A model generated the notes under the pieces. That model saw only the letters and a program-made list of their open reading frames with translations. It had not been told where the DNA came from and made no database searches. 64,000 nucleotides of DNA, from contig NZ_VJZZ01000001.1 in NCBI RefSeq assembly GCF_009659535.1, positions 759,424 through 823,423 of the forward strand. The letters are read 5' to 3'. The stretch is from Aggregicoccus sp. 17bor-14. Its GTDB lineage: Bacteria; Myxococcota; Myxococcia; Myxococcales; Myxococcaceae. Positions 5,599-14,321 of this stretch are shown piece after piece. The position numbers and the translations under genes are program-made. Numbering within the stretch: the first letter of the stretch is position 1; each line of letters starts with the position of its first letter.

Positions 5599-6540
5599 CT
5601 ACCCGCCCGCCGCGGCCCGGCGGCGGCGGCGGCGCCCGAGCGCGAGCAGCCCCAGCGCCCCGGCGAGCGGGGCCGCTTCGCCTCCCGCGGCGGTGCAGCC
5701 CAGACCGCTCAGCCCCTCGCCGCGCGCGACCAGCTGCTCGCGCACGGTGGCCGGATCCACGCACTGCACGGAGGGCTGCCCGCGCGGGTAGATGCCGCAG
5801 AAGCCCTCGGCGGTGCCCGGGTCCAGGATGCGCTTCTGCGTCTCGCCCGGGGGCGCGGTGGCCTCCATGGTGGAGCCGGTGCTCAGCACGTGGTCCAGGC
5901 CCACCACGTGCCCGAGCTCGTGGGTGAGCGTGTTCTGCAGGTCGATGGCCACGCAGCTGGGCAGCTGCTCGCTGCCGCAGGGCGGGCCGGCCACGGTGGT
6001 GAAGAGGTAGCCCTCGCCGCCGCCGAGCGGCGCCGCGTTGAACTCGATGTCCGCATCCAGGATGGCGCCGGAGCGGAAGCTGAAGGTGGTGGTGGTCAGC
6101 GCGAGCGTGCCCTCGTCGTGGCTCCAGCAGCGGTAGCGGTTCGCGCAGCTCTCCTCGCTGAAGCAGGGGTCCGTGGGCGGCACCACCTCGTCGCAGGCAC
6201 GCTCGCGGAACGTGAGCACGTTCACGTTGTCGCCGCCCGGCACGTACGCCACGTCCGGCGCCTCGAGGTCCGCGCCGCGCACGAACGCGAAGTCGCTGCA
6301 GGTGCCCGACAGCGTGCGCCAGCTGTCGAAGGCGGCCTCCATCGCGGCGAGCTCGGTGCGCTCGGGGGTGCGGGCGCTGCCGGCCGCGTCGTAGTGGTAG
6401 ACGTACTCGCGCACCGGCCAGTAGAGGCACAGCGGCTTGCCGGGCACGGCGGTGCGCCGGAAGTCCTGGGCGTGCGCCGCGCCGGCGGCGAGCAGGCACG
6501 CGCCCGCCCACAGCAGGCGCACGCCGCGCGCGCGGCTCAT
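5599..6540 (-). CDS. Secreted matrixin-like zinc metalloprotease with MYXO-CTERM tail (copy 1)
   Basis: 313 aa. A signal peptide occupies about residues 1-24 (cleavage near AAHA-Q). The zinc-binding signature HELGHVVGLDH is at 207-217 and a Met-turn candidate GSTM at 222-225, as in matrixins/metzincins. Many paired cysteines suggest disulfides. The C terminus is GLGCTAAGG (Cys 282), then a hydrophobic helix, then an arginine run. This is the MYXO-CTERM pattern, thought to be processed at the cysteine and used for surface display or release. The ATG overlaps the stop of copy 2 (ATGA), so the two are probably translated from one message. Substrate unknown. Confidence 0.85.
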   Translation of the reverse strand: MSRARGVRLLWAGACLLAAGAAHAQDFRRTAVPGKPLCLYWPVREYVYHYDAAGSARTPERTELAAMEAAFDSWRTLSGTCSDFAFVRGADLEAPDVAYVPGGDNVNVLTFRERACDEVVPPTDPCFSEESCANRYRCWSHDEGTLALTTTTFSFRSGAILDADIEFNAAPLGGGEGYLFTTVAGPPCGSEQLPSCVAIDLQNTLTHELGHVVGLDHVLSTGSTMEATAPPGETQKRILDPGTAEGFCGIYPRGQPSVQCVDPATVREQLVARGEGLSGLGCTAAGGEAAPLAGALGLLALGRRRRRRAAAGG

Positions 6541-7445
6541 GCGCGCCTCGCGCGCCTGCGCCGCAGCAGGGGCAGCAGCGCGAGCGCGCCGAGCAGCGAG
6601 GGCGCGAGGCCCGCGCCGCTCGCGCAGCCACCTCCGCCGCCGTCCCCGCCCGCCGAGCCCTCGGGGGTGGGCAGCCGGTCCACGCAGCTCACGCTGGGCT
6701 GGCCCTTCGGGTACACCTCGCACACGAAGCGCTTGGACGCGTCGTCGAGGACGCGCTTGCTCGTCTCGCCGGTGCGCGCGTCGGGCGCCATGGTCGAGCC
6801 GCTGACGCTCGAGTGATCCAGCCCGATGAAGTGGCCGGCCTCGTGGGTCACCGTGTTCTGGATGTCCGTGGAGGTGCAGCCGAGGCTGCCGGGCACGCCG
6901 CCGCAGGGCGAGTCCACGGCGGTGAAGTTGAAGCGCGCCGCGTTGAGCTCGATGTCCGCGTCGTAGATGACGCCGGTGCGCACGTCGTAGCTCACCGTGG
7001 TGATGCCGATGACGTTGTCGTCGAAGGCCCAGCAGTCGTAGGTGTTCGCGCAGCTCTCGTCCGTCCAGCAGGCGTTGGTGTCCGGGACGGTGCCCTTGCA
7101 GGCCTGGGTGCGGAAGAGCACCAGGTTGCGGTTGGCCTGGGTGGGGTTGTAGCCGACGCGCCGGTCCGCGACGCGCGCGCCCTCCACCAGGTTCAGGTTG
7201 CCGCACGCGGCGAACTGGTTCTCCCAGGTCTGGAAGGCCGCGCTCACCGCCCCGAACTCGGTGTCCCCGGTGGTGCCGGGGTTGCCCGCGGTGGACTGCT
7301 GCCAGGTGAGGGTGGGGGCCGTCCAGTAGAGGCAGGCGGGCGGCGTGTACTGGGTGTCCTGGGAGCGCGAGCGCACGTAGGGCGCGGTGCCGGTCTGCGC
7401 GAGCGCGAGGGCCAGGGCGAGTGCTGCAGGCGAGGCGAGGCTCAT
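6537..7445 (-). CDS. Secreted matrixin-like zinc metalloprotease with MYXO-CTERM tail (copy 2)
   Basis: 302 aa, a tandem paralogue of the downstream protease. The signal peptide is short (residues 1-16). Shared landmarks with copy 1 are the DESCANTYDCW-type cysteine pair (129-139), DADIELNAARF (162-172), the zinc site HEAGHFIGLDH (201-211), GSTM (216-219) and the GQPSVSCVD block (248-256). The end is glycine-rich GGGGCASGAG with Cys 274, a hydrophobic helix and RRRRARRA, a MYXO-CTERM tail. It overlaps both neighbours by 4 bases. The duplication with good conservation around the active site suggests both copies are functional. What they cleave is not evident. Confidence 0.85.
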   Translation of the reverse strand: MSLASPAALALALALAQTGTAPYVRSRSQDTQYTPPACLYWTAPTLTWQQSTAGNPGTTGDTEFGAVSAAFQTWENQFAACGNLNLVEGARVADRRVGYNPTQANRNLVLFRTQACKGTVPDTNACWTDESCANTYDCWAFDDNVIGITTVSYDVRTGVIYDADIELNAARFNFTAVDSPCGGVPGSLGCTSTDIQNTVTHEAGHFIGLDHSSVSGSTMAPDARTGETSKRVLDDASKRFVCEVYPKGQPSVSCVDRLPTPEGSAGGDGGGGGCASGAGLAPSLLGALALLPLLRRRRARRA

Positions 7446-8020
7446 CGCGGCTTCCCCGCCGGCGCCGGGCGCGCGGCGGCCGCGCGCACCGTGCCGCGCA
7501 GGCTCTCGAGCGAGACCGTGCGCTGGGTGGGCGCGACCTCGGCGCCCGTGGCGGCGTCCACCAGCCGCGCGTCGCCGAGCGACTCGGGCACGGCCAGCAC
7601 GCTCTTGCCGTCCGCGGAGCGCTGCACGTGGAACTTGCCCTGCGCCATGCCGCGCACCCCGAAGGCCGAGGGGCCGCGGCGCTGCAGGAACACCACCACC
7701 TCCTCGCCCGGCGCGAAGGCGGCGAGCCCGCTCACCTTCTGGCCCACGTCCCCCACCCTTCCACCCGGCTGGGTGACGAGCACGGTGTGGCCCGGGTCTC
7801 CCTTGAGCGCCTCGGCGACCTCGATCTCCACGTCGGTGACGATGCGCTGCCCGTCCCCGGACCAGCGGCTCTGCACGCGGCGCACGGTGCCGCGCACGAC
7901 CGCGTCGGACGCGGCGGTGAGCTCCGGCACGTCTGCGCGCAGCAGGCTGGTGGCGCCCGCAGGCAGGGCGAGGAGGAGGGCGAGGGCCGCGAGCGGAGGT
8001 CGGAGCAGGGAGCGTGTCAT
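7442..8020 (-). CDS. Small secreted protein, partner of the matrixin-like proteases
   Basis: A 192-residue protein with a signal peptide (residues 1-23, cleaved near AGA-T) and no recognised family. Its core has a strand-rich look: SDAVVRGTVRRVQSRW, VTDVEIEVAEALKG, and a block PGGRVGDVGQKVSGL at 85-99 followed by a FAPGEEVVVFL strand. The same block occurs as PGGRLGNIEQHVEGL in the C-terminal half of the fused protein at 13014-14321. That links this domain to matrixin proteases twice in the window. It is the first gene of the operon and its stop overlaps the ATG of protease copy 2. An inhibitor, chaperone or substrate of the proteases is possible; no catalytic motif is visible. Confidence 0.7.
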   Translation of the reverse strand: MTRSLLRPPLAALALLLALPAGATSLLRADVPELTAASDAVVRGTVRRVQSRWSGDGQRIVTDVEIEVAEALKGDPGHTVLVTQPGGRVGDVGQKVSGLAAFAPGEEVVVFLQRRGPSAFGVRGMAQGKFHVQRSADGKSVLAVPESLGDARLVDAATGAEVAPTQRTVSLESLRGTVRAAAARPAPAGKPR

Positions 8021-13013: not shown

Positions 13014-14321
13014 GTGACCGAACCTCGCTTCCCGTCTGCTGCTTGCCTTGCCCACCTGCTGTGCCGGGGCCTCGCGGTCCTCGTGCTGGCGGCGCTCACG
13101 CTGCTCGCCCCGGCGGGCGCGCACGCGTACGAGCTCAAGCGCGACTCGAGCGGCAACCCGGTGCGCTGGGAGGGCGCGGTGCAGCTGGTGGTGGACGCGA
13201 AGCTGGCGGAGCACCTGGGGGCGCCGGGGGCCATCGGCGCTGCGGACGCGGCCGTGGGCACGGTGCAGCGCGCCCTGGGCTCGCTGCCGGTGACGGTGGT
13301 CGAGGGCACCCCGGACGCGGTGGGCTACGACACCGCCGAGGGCGCGCACAACCAGAGCGAGATCGTGGCGCTGGAGGACTGGCCCTACGATCCGGACAGC
13401 CTCGCGGTGACGGTGGTGACCCTGGACACGCGCACCCACCGCATCCTGGACGCGGACATCGCCTTCAACGTGTCCAGCCGCCGCTTCGCGGTGCTCGCGA
13501 GCGACGCCACCGAGGGCGGCCTCTACGACGACGTGCAGAACACCCTCACCCACGAGCTGGGCCACGCCTTCGGCCTCGCGCACAACGGCGCGCTGCCGGA
13601 CGCGGTGATGTACCCCTCGGCGCGCCGCGGCGAGACCCGCAAGCGCGCGCTGCACGAGGACGACCAGGCCGGGCTCGCGGTGCTCTATGGCGGCGCCAGC
13701 GCCGAGGAGCCCCCCGCGGGCTGCAGCGCGAGCGGCAGCGGCGCGGCGCTCGGCCTCGCGCTGCTGCTCCTGCCCCTGCTGCTGCGCCGCCGCGGCGGGC
13801 GGCCGGTGGCGGCCTCCGCGCTCTGCGCCACCGCGCTGCTGCTCGCTGCAGCCGGCGCGCAGGCGAGCGAGGTGCGCCAGCAGGCCGCGGTGAGCGAGGC
13901 CTCGGTGGTCGCGACCACGGAGGTGGTGGCGGTGCGCACGCTGACGCCTGCTCCCGGCGCGCGGCTGCTGCAGAGCGAGGTGGAGGTGCGCGTGCGCGAG
14001 TGCCTCAAGGGGTCCTGCCCCGAGCGCATGGTGCTGCGCGTGCCGGGCGGACGGCTCGGCAACATCGAGCAGCACGTGGAGGGCCTCGAGGTGCCGGCCA
14101 CCGGCGAGAGCGTGGGCGTCACCGTGGGCAGCGGCGCCTCGGCCGAGCGCCCTGCCCCGCGCGCCGCGCGCGTGTACCGGCTCGGCGTGATGGCGGACTT
14201 CTCGGCCTTCGCCCGCGGCCTCAGCGCGGCGGGCTGGAAAGGCACGCTCGCCGTGCCGCACGGCGCGACGGCCGGTGCCAGCGCAGCGGTGGCCTCTACT
14301 TCAGCGCCTGCTGCGCGCTGA
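13014..14321 (+). CDS. Matrixin-like metalloprotease with internal MYXO-CTERM fused to partner-protein domain
   Basis: One uninterrupted frame of 435 codons with two secretory units. Unit 1 has a signal peptide (about residues 8-38, ending GAHA-Y), protease domain with DADIAFNVSS, zinc site HELGHAFGLAH at 180-190, a VMYPSA Met-turn, then a MYXO-CTERM-like tail with Cys 237, a hydrophobic helix and RRRGGR. Unit 2 begins near residue 265 (an in-frame GTG at 13806) with a second signal-peptide-like stretch ending GAQA-S. It continues with a domain homologous to the small protein at 7442-8020 (PGGRLGNIEQHVEGL near 344-358). No stop separates the units. The start is uncertain: GTG 13005, 13011 or 13014, none with a strong ribosome-binding site. 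Confidence 0.75.
   Translation: MTEPRFPSAACLAHLLCRGLAVLVLAALTLLAPAGAHAYELKRDSSGNPVRWEGAVQLVVDAKLAEHLGAPGAIGAADAAVGTVQRALGSLPVTVVEGTPDAVGYDTAEGAHNQSEIVALEDWPYDPDSLAVTVVTLDTRTHRILDADIAFNVSSRRFAVLASDATEGGLYDDVQNTLTHELGHAFGLAHNGALPDAVMYPSARRGETRKRALHEDDQAGLAVLYGGASAEEPPAGCSASGSGAALGLALLLLPLLLRRRGGRPVAASALCATALLLAAAGAQASEVRQQAAVSEASVVATTEVVAVRTLTPAPGARLLQSEVEVRVRECLKGSCPERMVLRVPGGRLGNIEQHVEGLEVPATGESVGVTVGSGASAERPAPRAARVYRLGVMADFSAFARGLSAAGWKGTLAVPHGATAGASAAVASTSAPAAR

Follow-up and report, generated by a model that had tools for sequence, protein, structure and literature searches.

Organization of the locus

The window (the whole stretch of 64,000 nucleotides of DNA that was analysed) combines matrixin proteases with a small exported protein in two different arrangements (Table 1). 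In the first, a partner operon, the gene of the small protein P0002 comes first and is followed by those of the matrixins P0003 and P0004, with four-base overlaps at 7442-7445 and 6537-6540. In the second, a matrixin and a small domain are encoded by one frame, P0001. The first-pass annotation had set separate overlapping genes at 5.6-8.0 kb against a single frame in the opposite order at 13014-14321, and the coordinates agree with this description. Both ORFs also contain the sequence block reported there as common to them, which reads PGGRLGNIEQHVEGL in the C-terminal half of P0001 and PGGRVGDVGQKVSGL in P0002.

Table 1. Features of the partner operon and of the fused gene (positions and strands are those of the window)
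Feature	Position	Strand	Score or basis
Matrixin P0004, C-terminal MYXO-CTERM-like tail	5599..6540	-	NF041905 358.3 bits, cut-off 250
Matrixin P0003, C-terminal MYXO-CTERM-like tail	6537..7445	-	NF041905 341.8 bits, cut-off 250
Small secreted partner P0002: signal peptide 1-23, predicted TIMP-fold domain from residue 24	7442..8020	-	
P0002 mature TIMP-fold domain as modelled, first residue Thr24	7445..7951	-	
Fused ORF P0001, 435 aa	13014..14321	+	signal peptide, matrixin, MYXO-CTERM, second signal peptide, TIMP-fold-related domain
P0001 N-terminal signal peptide, end ...PAGAHA	13014..13127	+	sequence reading; start codon uncertain
P0001 matrixin (MMP-like) catalytic domain, residues 39-231	13128..13706	+	Pfam PF00413, model match to karilysin, MMP-7/MMP-12
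P0001 zinc motif HELGHAFGLAH, residues 180-190	13551..13583	+	Met-turn Met199 downstream
P0001 internal MYXO-CTERM (GCS, membrane segment, RRR), residues 236-260	13719..13793	+	TIGR03382
P0001 internal signal-peptide-like segment, residues 263-284 (RPVAASALCATALLLAAAGAQA), end AGAQA	13800..13865	+	AxA site and hydrophobic segment
P0001 C-terminal TIMP-fold-related domain, residues 285-405	13866..14228	+	profile match and strand order

All three proteases match Pfam PF00413 above its gathering cut-off of 24 bits (P0001, 37.7; P0003, 33.8; P0004, 25.1). P0003 and P0004 are, by score, also members of the NF041905 family of MXAN_2677/MXAN_2678 metalloproteases, whose name is silent on a partner, whereas P0001 falls below the cut-off of that family (89.3 versus 250 bits). 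The small domain has no family model in Pfam or NCBIfam. P0002 is free of cysteine and thus contains no lipobox Cys, no counterpart of TIMP Cys1 and none of the TIMP disulphides.

The start codon of P0001 is uncertain because position 13014 is a GTG and the frame is open still further upstream. The MYXO-CTERM of P0001 scores 16.5 bits with TIGR03382 (cut-off 15.85), with the GC motif, the membrane segment and the Arg cluster all present; it lies mid-protein, at residues 236-260 of 435, and thus not at the C-terminus. Among 20 fusions, TIGR03901 matches nine and TIGR03382 seven (E 0.1). Weak matches of DUF4131 (PF13567) to the fusion cover membrane segments and were taken as driven by composition. 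The cysteine pair C-L-K-G-S-C (Cys330 and Cys335; 14001-14018, + strand) is invariant in the window-type fusion and absent from P0002.

The host genome (6.9 Mb) has three small-family domains, all of them beside or within a matrixin: the window operon, the window fusion and a pair on contig C11. In the third partner-protease pair of this genome (L234, 3190-5909, - strand), the matrixin protein is much larger. One other PF00413 match in the genome (C11, 117 kb) has a diverged astacin-like motif, HELGHTLGFRHEH, and stands without a partner. The genome also encodes the myxosortase MrtX (NF040593, 402.5 bits, above cut-off). Relatives in the matching records are named Myxococcaceae or Archangiaceae.

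Kinship of the small domains and linkage to matrixins

Pairwise BLASTP aligned P0001 and P0002 with 36% identity over 96 aa (E 2e-8). Stronger matches inside the window were obtained across profiles: the small-family profile finds the P0001 C-terminus with an iE of 4.8e-11, and a profile built from the fusion C-termini finds P0002 with an iE of 2.7e-13. The profile similarity of the two domains is therefore significant, as the first-pass annotation had predicted.

The small family is present in 168 of 179 Myxococcota genomes; some matches come from records named Proteobacteria, but taxon names given to metagenome bins are insecure. In 40 distant loci chosen by the small domain, which represent other families of the order or phylum or divergent copies, a matrixin was directly adjacent in 37. 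When loci were seeded by the matrixin motif instead, the small domain was nearby or fused at 69 of 79, a set that is not wholly free of bias because the query was the fusion alignment. The partner gene stands directly upstream of the protease gene in the window operon and in nearly all loci. The neighbourhood link to matrixins proposed earlier is thus near-universal in the Myxococcota loci examined, and three types of fusion add to it.

Several loci differ in detail. In L134 and L143, the partner gene is downstream, not upstream, of the matrixin. L218, L219 and L220 are solitary TIMP-fold genes with no matrixin near; those of L218 and L220 lie between the same neighbours, which by eye are dephospho-CoA-kinase-like and aminotransferase-like ORFs. 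At L099 (4479-5558, - strand) and L103 (4482-6227, + strand), the third zinc-binding His of the matrixin is replaced by Glu or Asp and the partner gene is kept.

NF041938 comprises MYXO-CTERM relatives of the matrixins in which the active site is replaced (RSIGE instead of HExxH), and nine of these were found in three genera (L236-L248). No partner gene occurs within 1.5 kb of any of the nine, nor within about 4.9 kb of the four that were followed to this distance. That these catalytically dead matrixins stand without a partner points to a partner role tied to catalysis, in a contrast drawn from nine proteins that are few, related and confined to three genera.

Fusion types and conservation of the window fusion

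Three fusion types were found. The small-matrixin fusions of seven genomes begin with a single signal peptide and the small domain, which a linker lacking any membrane segment joins to the matrixin, and they end in a C-terminal MYXO-CTERM; these are the true bidomain form. In three genomes, a second fusion of matrixin, MYXO-CTERM, signal peptide and small domain is built from NF041905-like matrixins. In a tree of 105 small domains, the seven small-matrixin fusions (SH-aLRT 100) and the three of the second type (99) occupy separate places among unfused copies, and the window-type fusion falls outside. To account for this tree, which is quick, unrooted and weak in its inner branches, the architecture must have changed at least three times.

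The window fusion is old and real. About 20 further genomes of the family keep its frame intact, as do three records from farther afield, and all of 21 aligned fusion ORFs run in the same order, from the matrixin through GC motif, hydrophobic stretch, basic residues and another hydrophobic stretch to the small domain. An alignment of 20 rows, including the three distant records (L124, L135 and L141), shows invariant H180, E181, H184 and M199 in the matrixin and invariant G236, C237, C330, C335, G345, G346 and G349; Ala284, at -1 of the predicted second cleavage site, is nearly invariant. An assembly error or a lost stop codon is unlikely because many genera of the family have loci that match P0001 over its full length, with the frame open and free of internal stops. 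The idea that an internal start yields the C-terminal domain as a separate translation product was likewise rejected, since no start with a ribosome-site-like motif is conserved before the second hydrophobic segment; candidates of this kind are limited to one or two members. Downstream of the unfused relatives L121 and L122, no remnant of the C-terminal domain was found.

The first-pass annotation had read P0001 as a protease fused in frame to its partner. The single frame stands, but that annotation had missed the internal sorting signal and the internal signal peptide that follows it. Given these two signals, the mature products of 13014-14321 are probably two proteins and not a single bidomain one.

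Predicted folds

The AlphaFold model of mature P0002, built with 39 sequences, has a mean pLDDT of 94.9 and a pTM of 0.89. The top Foldseek matches of this model are agrin NtA, TIMP-2, TIMP-1 complexes and another NTR domain (E 7e-4 to 1e-2). By structural alignment (VIA-align 2), the model matches N-TIMP-3 from the TACE complex with Z 10.8 and an rmsd of 2.6 A over 117 aligned residues, N-TIMP-1 with Z 10.4 and agrin NtA with Z 10.3. Residue 1 of the model (Thr24) falls on residue 1 of the TIMP-3 chain, and it does so for most of the TIMP chains that carry mature numbering. Domains of complement C3, C4 and C5 appear lower in the list (Z 8) with the same general fold and were left out of the assignment of function. 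Potempin A is absent among the matches listed for this fold, and kinship with it is still possible.

The likeness is much fainter in sequence. With hhalign, residues 8-53 of the small family align to residues 8-55 of TIMP-1/2/3, which is a weak match (P 0.0044, probability 7.8%) but in register, and none of 200 column-shuffled decoys scored as high. The TIMP-1 and TIMP-3 queries were identical to the PDB chains over their whole length, and TIMP-2 was set to the PDB chain at one differing residue. Read side by side from the mature N-terminus, S15-D16-x-V18 coincides in P0002 and TIMP, and the P-G-G motif may lie at the position of the TIMP-1 C-D loop near Cys70. P0002 has no match in Pfam, and the small-family profile found no relative among the sequences of solved structures. 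The Pfam TIMP and NtA models appear only below threshold, in one or two members of the small family (TIMP, PF00965, E 0.37 in one of 39 relatives). P0002 was not filed as a TIMP because the Pfam score stays below threshold and the TIMP cysteines are missing.

P0002 thus resembles animal TIMP-1, TIMP-2 and TIMP-3 and agrin NtA in its predicted OB/NTR fold (Z about 10), in the alignment of residue 1 on residue 1 and in the S-D-x-V register. It is unlike animal TIMPs in having no cysteines, only 9-13% identity and extra strands before the C-terminal helix, and inhibition by P0002 is a prediction.

The model of P0001 (pLDDT 82, pTM 0.78) has a poorly predicted hairpin. Its matrixin half is matched best by karilysin (Z 15.6), and MMP-7 (Z 15.2) and MMP-12 match it as well. 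In the C-terminal domain, the core is predicted at a pLDDT of about 95, and the printed secondary structure gives the strand order of P0002 minus the strands at 106-131.

The N-terminus of the small domain

An AxA site directly precedes the domain in 96 of 101 separate genes, and in all seven small-matrixin fusions the domain starts directly after the predicted signal-peptide cleavage site. Among matrixin-small fusions, 23 of 25 have an AxA site before the small domain and 23 of 25 a hydrophobic segment. Of the 77 separate sequences in which position 1 was readable, 76 have Thr or Ser there; on its own this conservation is moderate, and the preference of signal peptidase could account for part of it. 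TIMPs bind zinc via their free N-terminus, so that a TIMP-like mechanism would require a signal peptide ahead of the domain also where the domain is part of a fusion. The small domain of the window-type fusion is shortened, and Thr is not conserved at its position 1; this copy may therefore have lost or changed its role.

Proposed function and alternatives

The profile kinship and the linkage together support the earlier proposal that the small protein acts with the protease. Of the roles then suggested (inhibitor, chaperone or assembly factor), that of inhibitor is favoured by the TIMP/NTR fold and by the lack of a partner beside catalytically dead matrixins. We propose with moderate confidence that the small protein, of predicted TIMP/NTR OB fold and co-produced with an MMP-like protease, is the dedicated, N-terminus-dependent inhibitor or latency partner of that protease, and that the window fusion is a polyprotein cut twice. 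Signal peptidase would create the mature N-terminus of P0002, which would then enter the active-site cleft as in TIMPs. In the usual operon, the partner gene is first and overlaps the protease genes, and the inhibitor would thus be made before the enzyme; until export, it could protect the cell or keep the protease in a latent state. Some proteins that are not inhibitors (agrin NtA and complement C3/C4/C5) have NTR folds too, and this, with the solitary copies L218-L220, weakens the case for P0002 as an inhibitor.

From its sequence features, P0001 is probably a polyprotein processed by myxosortase and signal peptidase. The matrixin would be exported and the internal MYXO-CTERM would cross the membrane from outside to inside; the Arg-rich loop would stay in the cytoplasm, and the second signal peptide would export the TIMP-fold domain. 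Myxosortase could then cut at the GC motif, by which the protease would be sorted to the surface, and signal peptidase could free the N-terminus of the partner. Cut twice in this way, the two-span hairpin would yield protease and partner in equal amounts.

The alternative that survives best, although we regard it as unlikely, is that the TIMP-fold protein is a chaperone for folding or export of the matrixin and does not inhibit its activity. Near-obligate linkage, a partner gene that comes first, four-base overlaps and cis fusions would all suit a chaperone, as would the matrixins of L099 and L103, which keep the partner despite an altered third zinc ligand. However, the dead relatives are still exported MYXO-CTERM proteins and have no partner, the best fold match is an MMP inhibitor, and the N-terminus of the domain coincides with the predicted signal-peptide cleavage site in both the separate and the small-matrixin forms.

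Less probable again is a partner that serves as substrate or released signal, cleaved by the matrixin as in Listeria Mtz-Tim, with a product that acts on the envelope. The one bacterial metzincin/TIMP-like pair found described in the open-access literature does behave in this manner (PMC8235301). Tim of Listeria, however, is a lipoprotein that loses about 50 N-terminal residues, whereas the conserved domain studied here starts at the predicted signal-peptide site and has no spare N-terminal stretch.

An uncut P0001, in which matrixin and TIMP-fold domain on a membrane hairpin face each other outside the cell and regulation takes place in cis, is about as doubtful as the substrate model. The conservation of both processing signals speaks against it, with the GC motif invariant and the -1 Ala nearly so, and the internal MYXO-CTERM of MXAN_5598 has been proposed to be processed (PMC11980579). 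On the other side, the pTM of the whole chain hints at a defined arrangement of the domains despite the poor hairpin, and seven genomes have cis fusions without a membrane segment between the domains.

Least probable is an adaptor of NTR type that would target the protease by binding to the envelope or to the matrix of prey, with no inhibition. The fold matches do include domains with other ligands (NtA, netrin-type and complement C345C), and solitary copies exist, but an adaptor leaves the absence of partners beside dead matrixins and the N-terminus rule unexplained.

Comparison with known systems

MMPs and TIMPs are a textbook regulatory pair of animals. An MMP-like protease tied to a protein of predicted TIMP fold across a multicellular predatory phylum makes the origin of this pairing testable, and on the predicted structure a domain family that had no name would gain a fold and a likely role. 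The inhibitor reading can be extended to an ancient, phylum-wide MMP-TIMP system of the Myxococcota, in which an N-terminus made by signal peptidase is used as in animals and a polyprotein with internal sorting signal and signal peptide delivers protease and inhibitor one to one. This extension is tentative and on present evidence rather unlikely; if true, bacteria would possess a counterpart, or the source, of the pairing of MMP and TIMP in animals.

In Tannerella forsythia, the KLIKK proteases are preceded by potempin genes, and potempin A is described as an inhibitor specific for the downstream karilysin (PMC7296668; PDB 8b2q title). The karilysin-potempin A pair is like the present one in that an MMP-like protease has a small exported protein encoded directly upstream, and karilysin is also the best match of the catalytic half studied here. 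Compared by gene layout and descriptions, potempins differ in being described as lipoproteins, whereas the system studied here lacks a lipobox Cys, has proteases with MYXO-CTERM and includes fusions. In Stenotrophomonas rhizophila, a karilysin-like T6SS effector, Tse2, has a cognate immunity protein with a signal peptide, Tsi2, that is related to potempin A (PMC13340143). The setting there is one of type VI effector and immunity, with no fusion to the partner.

Listeria monocytogenes encodes a metzincin, Mtz, and an adjacent exported lipoprotein, Tim, which is predicted to be TIMP-like and is cleaved by Mtz; the authors knew no other bacterial TIMP-like protein (PMC8235301). Tim is a phage-linked lipoprotein encoded downstream of Mtz, whereas P0002 is free of Cys and precedes its matrixins. 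The present case stands apart from these known pairs in its spread across the phylum, in a modelled TIMP fold whose N-terminus matches, in fusions of either order and in the putative polyprotein form.

As a natural experiment, the window fusion could also show whether a single chain can be divided by myxosortase and signal peptidase into two proteins that are both exported. A mid-protein MYXO-CTERM is known from MXAN_5598, for which an origin by gene fusion was proposed along with processing (PMC11980579). MXAN_5598 joins an adhesin to beta-barrel/OmpA domains, whereas P0001 joins a protease to a domain of predicted TIMP fold.
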